From: Armatimonadota bacterium | GTDB lineage: Bacteria; Armatimonadota; Zipacnadia; Zipacnadales; VGFC01 | DNA: 35,560 bases | Direction: 5' to 3' | NCBI GenBank assembly: GCA_016869045.1 | Contig: VGFC01000023.1 | Location: 1-35,560, forward strand | Part shown: positions 3,193-11,150 of the stretch, one piece after another | Layout: every line of letters begins with the position of its first letter | Numbering within the stretch: the first letter of the stretch is position 1 | Translations under genes and position numbers: made by a program | The notes under the pieces: model-generated | Seen by the model: only the letters and a program-made list of their open reading frames with translations | What the model was told of the DNA's origin: nothing | Database searches by the model: none

Positions 3193-3773
3193 GGCCGGTC
3201 AATCCGTTCCGTCTCGGTAATGAGGACACGCACGCGCATGTCGTGCTCGTCCGCCGGCACCTCGGCCACCACCTGCGCCGCGAAGCAGATCGCGATCGCC
3301 GGTGCGCGACCGGCGACGGCGGCGAGGACTCGGTCGTAGTACCCGCCGCCGTACCCGAGCCGCCGCAGCTCCCGGTCGAAGGCGACGCCCGGCACCAGGA
3401 CGAAGTCGATGTCGTGCAGCGCGACCTCGGGACACCGTTCGGGGATCGGCTCCGGGATACCCCAGGTGCCCGGCGTGAGGTCGGCATTGGGGGACCGGAC
3501 CTCGCGCAGCTCGAGCCGGCGCGTCTCGGGGTCCACCCTGGGCAGCGCCAGACGCTTGCCCATGCGCAGCGACGCCTCAAGCAAATCGCCCGTGTCCACT
3601 TCGCTCCCGAAGCTCGCGAACAACAGCACGACCCGCGCCCGCCGGAACTCCGGGCTCTCAAGGACACGGCGGCAGATCGCGGCGCTGTTCGCCTTGCGCG
3701 TCGGCGCGTCCAGAGCGTCGCGCAAGGCGATGGTCCGCCGGCGGAGTTCCCGCTTCTCGTCCGCCCGGGTCAC
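3189..3773 (-). CDS. 5-formyltetrahydrofolate cyclo-ligase family protein
   Basis: C-terminal LVPGVAFDRELRRLGYGGGYYDR signature; GTG start at 3773 overlapping the upstream stop (GTGA). Confidence 0.9.
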   Translation of the reverse strand: MTRADEKRELRRRTIALRDALDAPTRKANSAAICRRVLESPEFRRARVVLLFASFGSEVDTGDLLEASLRMGKRLALPRVDPETRRLELREVRSPNADLTPGTWGIPEPIPERCPEVALHDIDFVLVPGVAFDRELRRLGYGGGYYDRVLAAVAGRAPAIAICFAAQVVAEVPADEHDMRVRVLITETERIDRP

Positions 3774-5953
3774 TCCGTCCCCTCCGCCCAGTCCTGCAGC
3801 TTCTTCCACCAGGGCCGGTCGTCGCGATCCGGCTTGGGTGGCCCGCCCTTCGGCTGAACGGTGTACGTGAGGCCATCCAGCCACGTCGGGATTGCGATCT
3901 GCATGCGGTAACGGAGCACCTGCACCTGCAGCGGCGCCAGGCGCACGTACACCTCCTGGCGCTTGGCCTGCACCGCGCGCTTGGTGAACTCGAAGTGCCC
4001 CTCGTACGTGCGGCTGATCAGCGGATCGTCACGCGAGACGGCCAGGACATGCTCGCTGTAGGGTACCTGGCGGAGCGTCAGCGTCAGTAACTTCGCGGTC
4101 GAGGTGTTGTTCCAGAGCACCAGGATCACCTCGTCCCCGCGCACGAACGGCAGCGCGACGATCGCCTCGCCGAACCGCCCTGAGATCTCGCTGCTGGTCC
4201 AGGAGCGCAGAATCGGGGCTGCCCCTGCGAGTTCGCGGCTCAGCTCGCGCACGGCCAGCCCCGCAGGAGAAAGCGCCCCATCGGCGCGGGTCAGCGCGAT
4301 CCGACCCGCCTCGGGGCCCCCGGGGAAGGTGGCCCCCGTCGCGCCCGCATAGGCCGCGAGGCACATGCTACGAGCGACCTTCACTGCATCAAGGCGCTCG
4401 TCAGTGCTGGCCGGGCCCCCGATTCCCGAGGTGAGAATCGGCTGCGAGGCGTCGTGCTTCTCCATGAGCGCCTCGACTGTCCGCGGATACTGCTGGGGAT
4501 CGAGGTCGGCCCAGAAGGCGCTCGGCTCGCGGGCGTTCTTGTCATTGAGCGACTCCCCCAGCACGCCGCCGACCGGCAGAGGGGTTGCCCTCACGACGAC
4601 CGCGCCGAAGTACTTGTCCATCTTCAGCGCGAGGCACGCGTCCAGCAGGCGGTTCTCCGGCGTGCCTTCCGCGTTGGCAGTGCAGTCGAACACGGGTGAA
4701 ATGCAGGCGGCGTCCAGGTCAGCCGTGCTCACCACTGAATGCAGTTCGCGGGACACGGCCAGAAGCGCTTCCGCCTCCTCCTGGAATGCGTTGCTCTGGT
4801 AGGGTCGGCCCGGGCGCCAGGCCGCGCTGTACAGGCCAACCTTGCCCTTCAGAGCAGTCACGAACTCACGGAGCACGCCGTTTTCCGGCAGGCCCTCGAA
4901 GAAGACGACGGGGATCGTCGGCGGACCCTCGATGATGGGCCGGACCTGGTCAAGCAACTGCTGGGCGGTTGAGGTTACTGTGGCCCGGACGAGCACCTCG
5001 CGAAGCTGCCACTGGCGGGCGCCGGGAGTGTCACCGGCGGTCACACCGAAGGCGGGGTAGTTGCGGGACACGGTCAGGTGGATCGGAAACGAGGCCGAGT
5101 CCTTGCCGGAACTCGCGGTGAGCCGCCCGCTGTAGGCTCCCGGCAGCAGCCCTTGCACCCGTAGCGAGGCGTTGTGGAGGCCGCTCTTCGCAATGGCGTA
5201 CTCCCGCGCATCGCAGGCGACGCCGTCGGGGAACTCACCTGTGATCGACAGCATCCGCGTCCCGGTTCCCCGTGCGAGAACGAGGGCCGACAGCGACGCG
5301 AATCCCCCCAGTGCGCAGGACGTCTCCGGGTTCACCGAGACCTGCGTCCCGCCGACATCGACGGTCAACTCGGTCACACCTGCGATCTCTCTCGCCTGCG
5401 CGTCCAGAGGCCCGTCGGGCTTCCAGCCATCGGGCAAGGCCGGCTTGACCGACGTGTCCGCCGGCAGGGGAAGAGTCTCCTGCACGAGAGCGAGTTCGCT
5501 CAGCCGCAGCTGGCCCTGCGCCTGTGCGCCGATGTACAAGTACAAGGGCTGACTGCCGGCCGCGGGAGGCGCCAGGCGAGCAGCAAGACGCTGCCGCTTG
5601 CCCGGGGGCACAGCCATGCGCCACAGCGTGGCAGCGGACTTCGTCGTCGGCTCGCGCAGGAACTGAACGACGAGCTGAGGCGCCCCCTCGCCCGTCGCCG
5701 ACACGCCGATGTCCACCAGCCCCGTCGGCTCAGGCTCCAGTCGGGCGACAATGCCGGCCTGTCCGGCGCCCGGCGCCAGCGAGACCTCCGTCGCCGGCCC
5801 AGACCCGCTCCAGCTCACTTGGCCGCCGCCGTCGGCGAGCACGGTCCAGGCGCGTTGCCCATCAGCGAAGGTCAACGGCAGTTCGCCCGTCTGCGCGGTC
5901 GCACAGCCGGTGGCGGCGGCCAGCACCGCGAGAAACAGGAGCAGCCTTGGCAT
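3770..5953 (-). CDS. Hypothetical large secreted lipoprotein
   Basis: MPRLLLFLAVLAAATGCATAQ... lipobox-like signal peptide; 727 aa, no catalytic motif recognised. Confidence 0.7.
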   Translation of the reverse strand: MPRLLLFLAVLAAATGCATAQTGELPLTFADGQRAWTVLADGGGQVSWSGSGPATEVSLAPGAGQAGIVARLEPEPTGLVDIGVSATGEGAPQLVVQFLREPTTKSAATLWRMAVPPGKRQRLAARLAPPAAGSQPLYLYIGAQAQGQLRLSELALVQETLPLPADTSVKPALPDGWKPDGPLDAQAREIAGVTELTVDVGGTQVSVNPETSCALGGFASLSALVLARGTGTRMLSITGEFPDGVACDAREYAIAKSGLHNASLRVQGLLPGAYSGRLTASSGKDSASFPIHLTVSRNYPAFGVTAGDTPGARQWQLREVLVRATVTSTAQQLLDQVRPIIEGPPTIPVVFFEGLPENGVLREFVTALKGKVGLYSAAWRPGRPYQSNAFQEEAEALLAVSRELHSVVSTADLDAACISPVFDCTANAEGTPENRLLDACLALKMDKYFGAVVVRATPLPVGGVLGESLNDKNAREPSAFWADLDPQQYPRTVEALMEKHDASQPILTSGIGGPASTDERLDAVKVARSMCLAAYAGATGATFPGGPEAGRIALTRADGALSPAGLAVRELSRELAGAAPILRSWTSSEISGRFGEAIVALPFVRGDEVILVLWNNTSTAKLLTLTLRQVPYSEHVLAVSRDDPLISRTYEGHFEFTKRAVQAKRQEVYVRLAPLQVQVLRYRMQIAIPTWLDGLTYTVQPKGGPPKPDRDDRPWWKKLQDWAEGTE

Positions 5954-6040
5954 CACAGTCCTCTTCGTACCGGCACTCGGGCGGTTGATGAGCAGCGGGT
6001 GAGTTCGTCCCCCGTCGAGCGCAGTCCTTCGCCCGGGACG

Positions 6041-6057
6041 GGGAGGCAAGGCCTCCC
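6041..6057. repeat. REP-like hairpin GGGAGGC-AAG-GCCTCCC
   Basis: 7-bp perfect arms with 3-nt loop in an intergenic region. Confidence 0.6.
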
Positions 6058-6107
6058 ACAAGCGTTAGACACCGGGGAGCCCCGGCCGGTTTGGGGCCTC
6101 GCAGCAA

Positions 6108-7229
6108 TCAGGCCCTCTCGACAAGGTCGATGATGGAGGAGGCGGCGTCGCGGGCTGCATTCGGTAGGCCGAGGGCCGCGGCGCGTTGTGCCACCCCGGC
6201 GAGTTGGTCGGGGTCCGCGAGCAGCTTCGTGACGATGGCGCAAACCTCGCGGATGGTCCTTGCTGCCCGCCCCGCGCCGCCGGCGACGACGAACGACTGG
6301 TTCGCGCGCTCCTGGCCGGGGATCGCCCCGTAGAGGACCAGCGGCAGGCCGACCGCCAGAGCCTCCGCTACAGTGACCCCACCCGGCTTCCCCACAAACA
6401 GGGACGCGGCAGTGTAGTGGCGGTGGATGTCCTCGACGAACGGGTAGACTTCGAGGGCGCCGTCCAGAGCGGGCGCCAGGGATTCCAGCGCCCGCTGCAG
6501 GGCCCTGTCGTGGCCGCAGACGACGATGGTTCGAGGGGCGCACTCGGCCACGGCGCGGCAGAGCGCTTCCGCGCCGCGGAGCATTCCCTCGGCACCCACG
6601 GTGATCAGCACCGGGCCGTCCGCCGGGCAGTCATCGCGTGGCGTGAACCCGGGCCGCACGGGGACGCCGCTGGCCTGGACGCGGTCACCGGGCACCCCCA
6701 AACCAACCAGTTCCTCTCGGAGCGCGTCGTGGCCGACGATGTAGAGGTCCACGCCTTCGTGAATCCACTGACTGTGGCTTGCGCAATCGGTGAGGATGGT
6801 GACCGAGGGGACGCTCACTTCGCCCCGGCGTTTCAGGCCGCAAAGCACGGCGGAGGGCGTCGGATATGTGCTGACGACCACGTCGGGTCGCCGGCTCCGC
6901 AGGTACTCGCGCAGGCGGCGACGACCGACTCGGTTCAGCCGGCTCTGCACGCGCGGGTGTTCGCCCACCCACTGCGCGGTGCGGTAGAACGAGCCATACA
7001 AGAAGGGGGCGTTGCGGGCGCTGAAGCCGTACGACCAGGCGACGGCCCGGCTGAACTTGGGGCCGACGAACTCCTCGAAGAAGTCGAGGACCTCGACGTC
7101 CCACTGTGGCCGGAGGTCGCGCACCGCCGCAGCTACGGTCTGGGCGATCATCCGGTGGCCGCCGCCGAAGCTGCTGGTAAGAACGGTGACCGTGGCCCGT
7201 GCCTCTCCCGCGGATGGTGGCCGTGTCAT
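6108..7229 (-). CDS. MGDG synthase / processive diacylglycerol glycosyltransferase-like (GT28-type) protein
   Basis: N-term TVTVLTSSFGGGHRMIAQ, C-term FVGKPGGVTVAEALAVGLPLVLYGAIPGQERAN; ATGA overlap with the upstream mutase. Confidence 0.85.
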   Translation of the reverse strand: MTRPPSAGEARATVTVLTSSFGGGHRMIAQTVAAAVRDLRPQWDVEVLDFFEEFVGPKFSRAVAWSYGFSARNAPFLYGSFYRTAQWVGEHPRVQSRLNRVGRRRLREYLRSRRPDVVVSTYPTPSAVLCGLKRRGEVSVPSVTILTDCASHSQWIHEGVDLYIVGHDALREELVGLGVPGDRVQASGVPVRPGFTPRDDCPADGPVLITVGAEGMLRGAEALCRAVAECAPRTIVVCGHDRALQRALESLAPALDGALEVYPFVEDIHRHYTAASLFVGKPGGVTVAEALAVGLPLVLYGAIPGQERANQSFVVAGGAGRAARTIREVCAIVTKLLADPDQLAGVAQRAAALGLPNAARDAASSIIDLVERA

Positions 7230-8602
7230 GCGTTGACGACCGGTCTGAGGATCGCCACGGCCTCCTCGCACAATCGCCGGGCGGCGCCGGTGGTGTCGCA
7301 CTCGGCGATCACGCGGATGATAGGCTCAGTGTTGCTCGGCCGGATGTGCAGCCACTGGCGCGTGTCGGGCCAGAGGACCTTCAGACCCTCGGTGAGGTCC
7401 AGCTTGTTGTCCGCATACTCGCGCCGAACAGCGGCCATCGCGTGCGGGACCCGGCTCGAGGGGCACTCGATCTTCGTCTTGTGCATGCCGCTTGGGCGGA
7501 AGCGGCGCATCCAGGCGGAGATGGTCCCATGCTCCGCGAGTCCCTGCAGTACCAGGGCCATGCCGGCCATGGCGTCGCGGCACAGATGCACCCGCGGGTA
7601 GACGACGCCACCGTTCCCCTCGCCGCCGACCACGGCTCGCTCGCGCAGCATGGTCTCCACGACGTTGATCTCGCCGACCTTGGTGCGGATGACCTGGCCC
7701 CCGTGACGGTCAGTGACCTCGTCGATCATGCGGCTTGTGGACACGTTGGTCACGATCGGTCCCGGCGTCTGGGCCGCGACCGTGTCGCAGGCGAACGCCA
7801 GCGTGAACTCCTCCCCGATGGCGCGCCCCTTCTCGGACACGATCGCCAGCCGATCCGCGTCGGCGTCCTGGGCGAAGCCTACGTCCGCGCCCGTCTCCTT
7901 CACGGCGCGGCACAAGGCCCGCAGGTTCTTGGCAATCGGCTCGGGGTCGTGAGGGAAGTCGCCGTCCGGTTTGCCGTGAATGACCTTCACCTTGCAGCCC
8001 AGCTCGCGCAGCAAGTCGGGGGCCATCACAGCGCCCGCGCCGTTGCACGTGTCCACAACGACCTTCGGCCGCCGTGCGCGGATCGCGTCCACGTCCGTGC
8101 TCTGCACGACCAGCCTGACATGTCGCTCGACGGCGTCGCTATCGGTCTCCACGGGGCTGATCTCCGACGTGCGCGCCAGCCGGAACTCGCCCTGATGGTA
8201 CACGTCGAGCAGCTCGGTCGCCTGGTACGAGTTGAGGAAGACGCCATCGGATTGCGCGAACTTCAGCGCGTTCCACTGCGCCGGGTTGTGGCTCGCGGTG
8301 ATGGCGACAGCGCCCGCAGCCTGTCGGTGTTTCACCGCGACCAGCACCGTCGGGACGGGCACCACGCCCAGGTCGATCACACGGCAGCCCGTCGCCAGCA
8401 GGCCGCCGACTACGGCCGAGCGGACCATCTCTCCTGTCTGGCGGGTATCGCGCCCGACCAGCACGACGCCGCCCTCGACGTAGCAACCGAACGCCTCCGC
8501 GAAGCCCACGACGAGCTGAGGCGTGAGCGATTCGCCCACGACCCCGCGCACGCCCGAGATGCTGACCTTCAGCGTATGAACCGGCGACCGCGCCGTTACC
8601 AT
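7226..8602 (-). CDS. Phosphoglucosamine mutase / phosphomannomutase family protein (canonical active site)
   Basis: VAITASHNPAQWNALKF catalytic Ser loop, DADADRLAIVSEKG metal loop, GEGNGGVVYPR, RPSNTEPIIRV phosphate loop. Confidence 0.9.
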   Translation of the reverse strand: MVTARSPVHTLKVSISGVRGVVGESLTPQLVVGFAEAFGCYVEGGVVLVGRDTRQTGEMVRSAVVGGLLATGCRVIDLGVVPVPTVLVAVKHRQAAGAVAITASHNPAQWNALKFAQSDGVFLNSYQATELLDVYHQGEFRLARTSEISPVETDSDAVERHVRLVVQSTDVDAIRARRPKVVVDTCNGAGAVMAPDLLRELGCKVKVIHGKPDGDFPHDPEPIAKNLRALCRAVKETGADVGFAQDADADRLAIVSEKGRAIGEEFTLAFACDTVAAQTPGPIVTNVSTSRMIDEVTDRHGGQVIRTKVGEINVVETMLRERAVVGGEGNGGVVYPRVHLCRDAMAGMALVLQGLAEHGTISAWMRRFRPSGMHKTKIECPSSRVPHAMAAVRREYADNKLDLTEGLKVLWPDTRQWLHIRPSNTEPIIRVIAECDTTGAARRLCEEAVAILRPVVNA

Positions 8603-8624
8603 GGTATGCCCTCGCGACCCCGCT

Positions 8625-9992
8625 TCACATGACCGCCCGCCGCACGCGCCAGGCGAAGCGCTCGGCCAGGTCGTTGGCGGCCTGCTGCGTCGGGCCCTCG
8701 CTGATGACGCGGATGATCGGCTCGGTGATTGAGGCCCGAACGTGCACCCACATGCCCTCGTCGATGATCTTCACGCCGTCCTCGAGATCGATGGCGCCGC
8801 CAAAGACGCCCTGCTCGGCTTCCTCGCGGATCTGCTCGACAACCGCCGAGACCTTAGCCGGCGGACACGGGATGGTGAGCTTGACCATGTGGATGCTCGG
8901 CAGTTCGGCGACAATGCTGCTCAACGGGCGGCCGACGTGAGCCATGAGTTCGAGCACGTGAGCCAGCGTCGCCAGGCTGTCGTGCGCGCAGTTGATACGC
9001 GGGAACATCACGCCTCCGCTGCCCTCGCCCGCAACGGCGGCCTCATTGCTCAGCGCGGCTTCCGCCACGAAAGACTGCCCGACCCGCGTCCGGATCACTT
9101 CCCGCCCGTGGCGCTCCGCGACCTCGTCAACGGCATGAGTAGTGGAGACATTGGTCACCACGGGCCCCGGGTCCCCCCGGCTCAGCACAGCCTCCGTCGC
9201 CAGGCAGAGGGTCAGTTCATCACCCGGCGCCTCGCCCTTCTCAGTGACCACCCCGAGGCGGTCCCCGTCGGCGTCCTGAGCGAAGCCGACATCCGCCTTA
9301 GCGGCGGCGACCAGCGCGCGCAGTTGGCCGAGGTTCTTCGGGCCGGGCGCTGGCTCGTGGGGGAAGGGCTGGTCCGTGTCGGTGTTGATCGGGACCACGC
9401 GGCAGCCCAATGACCCCAGGAAGCCGGGGGTGAAGCCCGAGCACGCTCCGTTGCAGCAATCAACCGCAACCGTGAAGGCGGCTTTGCGTATCGCCTTCGC
9501 GTCGATGTGCCGGCGCAGCACCCGGGCGTGCTCCTGTGGCAGCAGGGCTTCCGTCTCGACGGCCGGGCACACTTCCCGGTAGGGCGCCTTGTGGAACTCG
9601 CCCTGGTGGAGGATGTTCAGCAGCTCCTCGCCCTGGTTGGCGTTCAGGTAGAGGCCGTCCTGTCGCACGAACTTGAGGGCGTTCCACTCGAGGGCGTTGT
9701 GGCCGGCAGTGACCGCGATCCCGCCGCCGGCCTCGGTGGACTTGACCGCCCACTGCATCGCGGGCGTGGGACAGACGCCGAGCTCCACCACCCGACAGCC
9801 GGTGGCCAGGAGGCCCGCTGCCACACAGGAGGTCACCATCGGCCCGGAGGGCCGGGTATCGCGCGAGATCAGCACCGTCGCCGGCCCCACCAGTGTCCCG
9901 AACGCCTGCGCGAAGTTCGTGAGCAGTCGGGGATCGAGCGTCTCCCCCACGATGCCTCGAACGCCGGTGATGGAGATCTTCAGAGATGCCAT
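8625..9992 (-). CDS. Phosphoglucosamine mutase / phosphomannomutase family paralog lacking the catalytic Ser (TAGHNA)
   Basis: MASLKISITGVRGIVGETL...; IAVTAGHNALEWNALKF; DADGDRLGVVTEKG; GEGSGGVMFPR; RASITEPIIRV. Confidence 0.88.
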   Translation of the reverse strand: MASLKISITGVRGIVGETLDPRLLTNFAQAFGTLVGPATVLISRDTRPSGPMVTSCVAAGLLATGCRVVELGVCPTPAMQWAVKSTEAGGGIAVTAGHNALEWNALKFVRQDGLYLNANQGEELLNILHQGEFHKAPYREVCPAVETEALLPQEHARVLRRHIDAKAIRKAAFTVAVDCCNGACSGFTPGFLGSLGCRVVPINTDTDQPFPHEPAPGPKNLGQLRALVAAAKADVGFAQDADGDRLGVVTEKGEAPGDELTLCLATEAVLSRGDPGPVVTNVSTTHAVDEVAERHGREVIRTRVGQSFVAEAALSNEAAVAGEGSGGVMFPRINCAHDSLATLAHVLELMAHVGRPLSSIVAELPSIHMVKLTIPCPPAKVSAVVEQIREEAEQGVFGGAIDLEDGVKIIDEGMWVHVRASITEPIIRVISEGPTQQAANDLAERFAWRVRRAVM

Positions 9993-10004: not shown

Positions 10005-11102
10005 CTACTCCACAGTGACCGTCAGTCCCGGGTGAGACTCCACGATGTAGGCCTTCCCGCCTGCCGACTCGATGGCCGCCGCCACCTGCTCCTGGCGACC
10101 CGGCGCCAGCGCGAACATGCACCCGCCCCCGCCCGATCCGTTGATCTTGGCTCCGAGTGCGCCGGCGGCCAGCGCAGCCTCAACCATGCGGTCGATCTTC
10201 TCGGTGGAGATCTGGATGTTGCGCGAGAGCTGCTCGTGGTGCTCTTGCAGCAACCGGCCGATCTCGGCGACATCCGGGTCCTCGGCGCCCAGCAACCGGC
10301 GAGCCGCCACGCACAGGTCCCGGTTGATGAGGTTCCCCTCCAGCATCTCCTGACCGCGCACTTCGAGGTTGGCGAAGACGCCGCGTGCGTCCTCAACCGG
10401 GGTCTCGTGAATGCTGAACCCGTTGATCTCCTGCCTCGCGACGGCCACGGCGCGCGCCATCGCCTGCCGCGAACGGGCGAGGGTGGTGGTCGTGTCCTTG
10501 GGGGTGAGGGAATCGCCCAGGACGAAGCCCTCGAGCATCGCCGGGAGGCGCGTGCACTCGATCTCTCCCTCGGTCCTGATGTGCAGTAGCCCGCCGAGGG
10601 CCGAGGTGTAGTGGTCCATCATCCCGCCGGGCTCGTTGAACTCAATGACTTCAGCACGGTGCGCCAGCCGCGCGACCGTCACCGGATCGCGGGGGAAGGC
10701 GTCGCTCTGAGAGACCGCCAGGAAAGCGATCCAGGCATTGAGCATTGCCGACGAGCTCCCGCAACCCGCGTTGATCGGGATGTTGCCTCGCACCGTGATG
10801 TCGTAGCCGTAGCGACACCGCAGCCCCTCGCGACGCAGCACGTTCACCGCCGAGCGCAGGTAGTCCCGTCGGTGGCGGTATGTCAGCTCGTTGCCTGGGT
10901 CGATCTCGTCATGGTCGTCGATGTCAGGCAGATCGATGCGAAACAGGCTGTCCTCGCGCCGCGTGCCTGTGAAGGCGATCTCGCGCGTTACGGCGAGCGC
11001 GATCACCGGCAGACCCAGGAAGTCCTGATGCTCGCCGAAGAGGCAGAGCCTCCCCGGCGCAGAAGTCGTAAGCCGACCCGGTGGCAGCAAGAGTCGCTCC
11101 AT
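10005..11102 (-). CDS. GHMP kinase family sugar kinase (galactokinase-like)
   Basis: SAPGRLCLFGEHQDFLGLPVI N-term; IPINAGCGSSSAMLNAW ATP loop; KINGSGGGGCMFAL C-term motif. Confidence 0.88.
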   Translation of the reverse strand: MERLLLPPGRLTTSAPGRLCLFGEHQDFLGLPVIALAVTREIAFTGTRREDSLFRIDLPDIDDHDEIDPGNELTYRHRRDYLRSAVNVLRREGLRCRYGYDITVRGNIPINAGCGSSSAMLNAWIAFLAVSQSDAFPRDPVTVARLAHRAEVIEFNEPGGMMDHYTSALGGLLHIRTEGEIECTRLPAMLEGFVLGDSLTPKDTTTTLARSRQAMARAVAVARQEINGFSIHETPVEDARGVFANLEVRGQEMLEGNLINRDLCVAARRLLGAEDPDVAEIGRLLQEHHEQLSRNIQISTEKIDRMVEAALAAGALGAKINGSGGGGCMFALAPGRQEQVAAAIESAGGKAYIVESHPGLTVTVE

Positions 11103-11150
11103 TCGCAAGTGTCGTTGGTGACATGGGCGGCCCGCCCGTGGCCGCCGTTA

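Follow-up and report, generated by a model that had tools for sequence, protein, structure and literature searches.

A phosphohexomutase paralog without the catalytic serine, conserved beside a canonical copy: a candidate non-catalytic partner subunit

To our knowledge, the characterised phosphohexomutases (PHMs) have been treated as self-sufficient enzymes with one type of subunit. Here we consider a tandem pair of PHM genes in a 35,560-nucleotide stretch of DNA (the window; contig VGFC01000023.1, positions 1 to 35,560) from an Armatimonadota bacterium. One gene encodes a canonical enzyme, P0001. The other encodes P0002, a paralog with glycine in place of the phosphoserine. This "dead" sister probably acts as a partner of the live enzyme, in sensing or in control.

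Precedents exist both for the fold and for the principle. The archaeal phosphopentomutase (PPM) of Thermococcus kodakarensis is a homotetramer, a dimer of dimers whose interface residues include Trp134 and Ala132 (PMC11641776). PGM5 (aciculin), a protein of the PHM superfamily, is reported to have no enzyme activity and a structural role (PMC5570346). In trypanosomatids, deoxyhypusine synthase and S-adenosylmethionine decarboxylase are reported to be active enzymes that are activated, in a heteromer, by a catalytically dead paralog, the prozyme (PMC3663545, PMC5201418).

A phosphohexomutase without its phosphoserine

The reading frames of both genes are open from ATG to stop. Open reading frames (ORFs), translations, and motif coordinates, read afresh, bear out the preliminary description of the locus: a TASHNP copy and a TAGHN copy in tandem, the latter with a GGC glycine codon (Table 1). 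Measured against an active PHM, P0002 has the four-domain fold and the metal, sugar, and phosphate loops; it lacks the phosphoserine. Its four PGM_PMM Pfam domains (I-IV) are all present, and AlphaFold predicts a confident full-length fold (pLDDT 89.4, pTM 0.89). The best match to this model in the Protein Data Bank, found with Foldseek, is an archaeal phosphoglucomutase (PGM; 9du5; TM 0.89, 35% identity). P0002 departs further at sites conserved in canonical copies, for example at Arg337 (His) and Glu306 (Gln).

P0001 contains all four catalytic loops (TASHN, DADADR, GEGNGG, and RPSNTEP) and four PHM Pfam domains, and scores 505.9 bits with TIGR03990, whose cut-off is 439. This model describes the archaeal-type phosphoglucosamine mutase ("Arch_GlmM"), and P0002 passes it too, with 457.8 bits. 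TIGR03990 is an equivalog model, so automatic annotation would call P0002 a phosphoglucosamine mutase. Because the cut-off is passed without the catalytic serine, that name is doubtful, and other such genes are probably misannotated.

Distribution and order of the pair

A TAGHN ortholog (51-61% identity) is present in 26 of the 41 genomes of the window's order, its own genome counted. Gly97 (P0002 numbering, here and below) is invariant in the 24 orthologs that could be aligned, within TAGHN or TGGHN; also invariant are His98, Asn99, Lys107, DADGDR, and GEGSGG. Serine-less copies are found in at least five phyla: Armatimonadota, Acidobacteriota, Aminicenantota, Verrucomicrobiota, and Myxococcota, the last two with one bin each. 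Nearly all of these relatives are metagenome bins, and the taxon labels of single bins are uncertain (locus L120, for example, is labelled Arcobacter). Named relatives include Candidatus Zipacnadia, WS1, and Fimbriimonadaceae among the Armatimonadota, of which further families also have the pair, and Pyrinomonadaceae, Vicinamibacterales, and Bryobacterales among the Acidobacteriota.

Both genes are present at 65 loci. At every one of them the odd copy lies upstream of its partner on the same strand, and at 55 the gap is within 200 bp. For residue comparisons we aligned 72 upstream copies, 71 downstream partners, and 27 stand-alone copies; at several loci the contig runs out before the partner is reached, and there the upstream or downstream class was assigned by sequence.

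The catalytic set (Ser, Lys, and three metal-binding Asp) is altered in 63 of the 72 upstream copies and unchanged in nine. Partners have the complete set in 69/71 cases, stand-alone copies in 27/27. Glycine occupies position 97 in 54 upstream copies, across phyla, and at least one of the three metal Asp residues is altered in 40. The combinations differ by lineage, written as Ser/Lys/Asp-Asp-Asp: G/K/DDD in the window's order; G/K/DDE in Pyrinomonadaceae; G/N/NDS in most Aminicenantota; and S/K/NDD in some other Armatimonadota. What was earlier described as an intact metal loop is indeed intact in the window's copy; in the other three groups Asp residues have been lost.

The binding residues have been kept. 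Phosphate-loop residues Arg419, Ser421, Thr423, and Glu424 are found in all 72 upstream copies, as are His98 and Arg245, and sugar-loop Glu323 is found in 71. These varied losses, set on conserved binding residues, therefore indicate that the chemistry was lost repeatedly on a retained binding site. Arg337 (69/71 partners, 27/27 stand-alone copies) persists in just one upstream copy; at position 306 the upstream copies mostly have Gln in place of Glu. An Aminicenantota copy (L094), its structure predicted without an alignment, gave an uninformative model (pLDDT 38). Cys184 lies where domain 2 begins, in the NGACS loop. It is present in 39/72 upstream copies; canonical copies all have Gly or Ala at this position. 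An altered role in the active site is possible.

A tree constructed with the motif columns removed, and with archaeal structures as outgroup, places the upstream copies in one clade (support 100/99) that arises within the canonical bacterial copies. The clade of serine-less copies is ancient. On the upstream-copy tree, position 97 changed between Ser and Gly at least three times, and the metal loop between intact and altered at least four times. Pairwise ratios of nonsynonymous to synonymous substitution (dN/dS) are about 0.06-0.3 for upstream copies and close to this for partners in the same genomes, by the rough Nei-Gojobori method; in the more distant pairs, synonymous sites are to some extent saturated. 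By this measure, genes of the P0002 type and their partners are both under purifying selection.

The earlier proposal, in which a pseudo-mutase and an active copy have become fixed as a pair, is supported by the age, order, and synteny of the pair and by purifying selection on it. Its proviso, that close homologs might all carry serine, has gone the other way (glycine in 24/24 orthologs of the order). We reject sequencing error, recent mutation, or a decaying gene as having practically no likelihood: glycine recurs in orthologs from 26 of the order's genomes, and beyond the phylum. As the preliminary description held, the gene is not decaying, since dN/dS is well under 1 and the predicted full-length fold is confident.

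A candidate heteromer interface

A scan of all alignment columns identified His129 as the most pair-specific residue (71/72 upstream, 65/71 downstream, 0/27 stand-alone); its near neighbours Glu123 and Gln130 are likewise pair-specific. The most downstream-specific position is column 138, equivalent to Trp134 of the T. kodakarensis PPM. Trp is found there in 50/72 upstream copies, 16/27 stand-alone copies, and the archaeal sequences, and in 0/71 downstream copies, which have mostly Ala, Gly, Asn, or Ser. (The P0002 residue is Tyr.) Two stand-alone copies are nested in the downstream clade; they come from f6 genomes, which have lost the upstream gene, and they no longer have the His-Gln motif.

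Together, the pair-specific residues, the downstream loss of Trp138, and the loss of the motif in these two copies are suggestive of an asymmetric heteromer interface, which they would fit. The location of pair-specific residues at a known dimer interface offers the idea of a heteromer indirect support.

What the paralog may do

On balance, the likely role of P0002 is that of a pseudo-mutase subunit: it would bind ligand, assemble with P0001, and either support or control that enzyme. The protein should be stable and PHM-folded. P0002 keeps the sugar and phosphate loops and is therefore expected to bind hexose (bis)phosphate, a hexose being the presumed sugar. Solved structures of serine-less Pseudomonas aeruginosa phosphomannomutase/phosphoglucomutase (PMM/PGM) mutants count in favour of such a subunit: one of these, 2fkm (S108D), contains glucose 1,6-bisphosphate. 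P0002 cannot make the phosphoserine required by the classical reaction, and presumably lacks mutase activity. Most likely, it would join the TASHN enzyme from the adjacent gene in a physical heteromer through the domain-1 interface, which is the dimer-of-dimers interface of the archaeal relative. As a non-catalytic subunit, it would then support or control the mutase activity of its partner in response to bound sugar phosphate, a putative allosteric role.

A broader proposal, which we make only tentatively, is that these pairs form an undescribed heteromeric PHM class in at least five bacterial phyla. An ancient duplicate would have become a non-catalytic, sugar-phosphate-sensing subunit; phosphoserine, metal site, and general base would have been lost in combinations that vary with lineage; and the subunit interface would be asymmetric.

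Several observations tell against a non-catalytic partner subunit. Upstream copies of the Bryobacterales type retain the Ser, the Lys, and all three Asp, so catalytic loss may not be clade-wide. (Taken with the metal-loop losses in some lineages, this makes loss of the serine one of several routes away from the standard active site.) In the Fimbriimonadaceae genome G067, the TAGHG and TASHN copies are unlinked, on different contigs. The preliminary description asked whether the TAGHN paralog forms a clade always adjacent to a TASHN copy. This holds in part: there is one clade (100/99), paired at 65 loci, but G067 is unlinked and some copies in the clade keep Ser. The link between the His-Gln motif and pairing rests, in a sign test, on two independent contrasts only, and is not significant by itself. 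Finally, serine was replaced by glycine in 54/54 cases, with all four glycine codons in use. This suggests a specific role for glycine rather than simple relaxed constraint.

Glycine that appears to have been selected favours the main rival, altered chemistry. Here the glycine would admit a second phosphate, and P0002 would act on sugar bisphosphates, by hydrolysing them, by making them, or by a direct transfer that needs no phosphoenzyme. The window's lineage still has its metal loop, Lys107, and His98, so that the window's copy, taken by itself, might yet be capable of such chemistry; Cys184 occurs only in upstream copies. We nevertheless consider altered chemistry unlikely. Aminicenantota copies that share the glycine have lost two metal Asp residues and the Lys, which argues against metal-dependent phosphoryl transfer across the clade, and this reading does not say why a canonical copy is invariably the partner. 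The intact metal loop and Lys of the window's copy, with invariant His98, might also point to an ordinary mutase, one with a different nucleophile or with weak activity in the absence of Ser. That seems very improbable given the repeated, differing catalytic losses within the clade and the loss of Arg337 and Glu306, both conserved in canonical copies. Conserved ligand loops also speak for a stand-alone sensor or scaffold, which would bind sugar phosphate and act on a target other than the neighbouring mutase; the GlmM-CdaA complexes (7olh, 7ojs, 9g69) and PGM5/aciculin (PMC5570346) are precedents. Near-invariant adjacency and order with the canonical copy across phyla, and pair-specific residues in both proteins, make this a distinctly poor prospect.

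Neighbouring genes and related proteins

The pair lies in a tight minus-strand run: a GHMP-family kinase gene, 12 nt, P0002, 22 nt, P0001, and then a glycosyltransferase gene, its ATG and the stop codon of P0001 overlapping in ATGA. The kinase scores under all NCBIfam cut-offs. Within the window's order, its gene immediately precedes the pair at most loci with enough sequence; in the other phyla it does not, and we rejected it as a member of the core unit for that reason. In a genome of the same genus (L035), a glycosyltransferase gene likewise follows the partner copy; that genome also encodes a relative of the unmatched protein beyond the glycosyltransferase. Among the Acidobacteriota and other loci, a neighbourhood search found no common neighbour beyond lineage-local genes. 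The source genome has four PHM genes in all, and the idea that the pair is the sole GlmM of the cell is not supported: a separate bacterial-type GlmM is encoded on another contig (TIGR01455, 562.8 bits; cut-off 447.55). The neighbouring kinase and glycosyltransferase genes suggest that the pair may function in hexose-1-phosphate metabolism.

Table 1. Genes and motifs at the PHM pair locus (window coordinates)
Feature	Coordinates	Strand	Basis or remarks
Serine-less PHM paralog P0002, upstream pair member	8625..9992	-	455 aa; ORF, translation, Pfam, TIGR03990, AlphaFold, tree
TAGHN loop, P0002	9696..9710	-	ACT GCC GGC CAC AAC; Gly97 (GGC) at phosphoserine position
LHQG motif, P0002	9600..9611	-	Pair-specific (YHxG in most members); beside domain-1 dimer interface
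DADGDR metal-binding loop, P0002	9258..9275	-	Intact here, degraded in other lineages
GEGSGG sugar-binding loop, P0002	9012..9029	-	
RASITEP phosphate-binding loop, P0002	8718..8738	-	
Canonical PHM partner P0001	7226..8602	-	458 aa; TIGR03990 505.9 bits, Pfam; groups with downstream copies
TASHN loop, P0001	8285-8299	-	
YHQG motif, P0001	8189-8200	-	
GHMP-family small-molecule kinase	10005..11108	-	Pfam GHMP_kinases_N/C and GalKase_gal_bdg
Glycosyltransferase, monogalactosyldiacylglycerol (MGDG)-synthase-like / diglucosyl-diacylglycerol-synthase-like	6108..7229	-	Domain matches, synteny
Protein after the glycosyltransferase	3770-6061	-	No Pfam or NCBIfam match

Some related proteins show variations of their own. 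Canonical partners of family f5, at six loci, have TASHHP for TASHNP: Asn is replaced by His, and Ser is kept. Genome G067 contains an additional pair (L170:6219-9294) in which the downstream copy is itself degenerate (TGGSQ, AAGGDR, SNSQ). A search for fusions of the two copies among long frames recovered only nucleotidyltransferase-PHM fusions, which belong to a different family. These proteins, at six loci (L182-L187) in six other Armatimonadota genomes, join a nucleotidyltransferase to a carboxyl-terminal PHM-like domain whose catalytic loops are gone (for example, HVRxxP for TASHNP, and LPDxSEPxFH for the phosphate loop). They make up another family of non-catalytic PHM domains, separate from that of the upstream copies.

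Comparison with known systems

Our literature search, restricted to open-licence papers, found no description of a bacterial PHM pseudoenzyme or heterodimer, or of this pair; an earlier mention elsewhere is possible. The fold is known, as is the principle of a dead paralog acting as partner; it is their combination that we did not find described. With Ser, Lys, and metal ligands lost independently and the binding site kept, the upstream copies form a natural series in which to study how an enzyme becomes a binding subunit.

P0002 has its fold, domain order, and sugar and phosphate loops in common with archaeal-type PHMs (PGM/PMM, 1wqa and 9du5; PPM, 9ix8), and is 34-35% identical to 9du5 and 1wqa in structural alignment. 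Unlike these proteins, which have TASHN in the solved structures, P0002 is without phosphoserine, has replacements of Arg337 and Glu306, and is a member of a conserved tandem pair. PGM5 differs from P0002 in being a vertebrate protein of the PGM1-like subfamily with no operon pairing. The GlmM-CdaA complexes show the PHM fold as the binding partner of another protein; there, however, GlmM is itself a canonical mutase, and its partner is a diadenylate cyclase rather than a paralog.

The trypanosomatid prozymes offer the nearest parallel in principle. Here too a dead and an active paralog are kept together, in one clade and at 65 syntenic loci, with the exception of unlinked G067. The prozyme systems are eukaryotic, and differ in fold and pathway; in the PHM pair, complex formation and activation are putative. 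If this proposal is correct, the dead-plus-live pair would be a prokaryotic counterpart of prozyme-type regulation, placed where the syntheses of sugar nucleotides and glycans branch.

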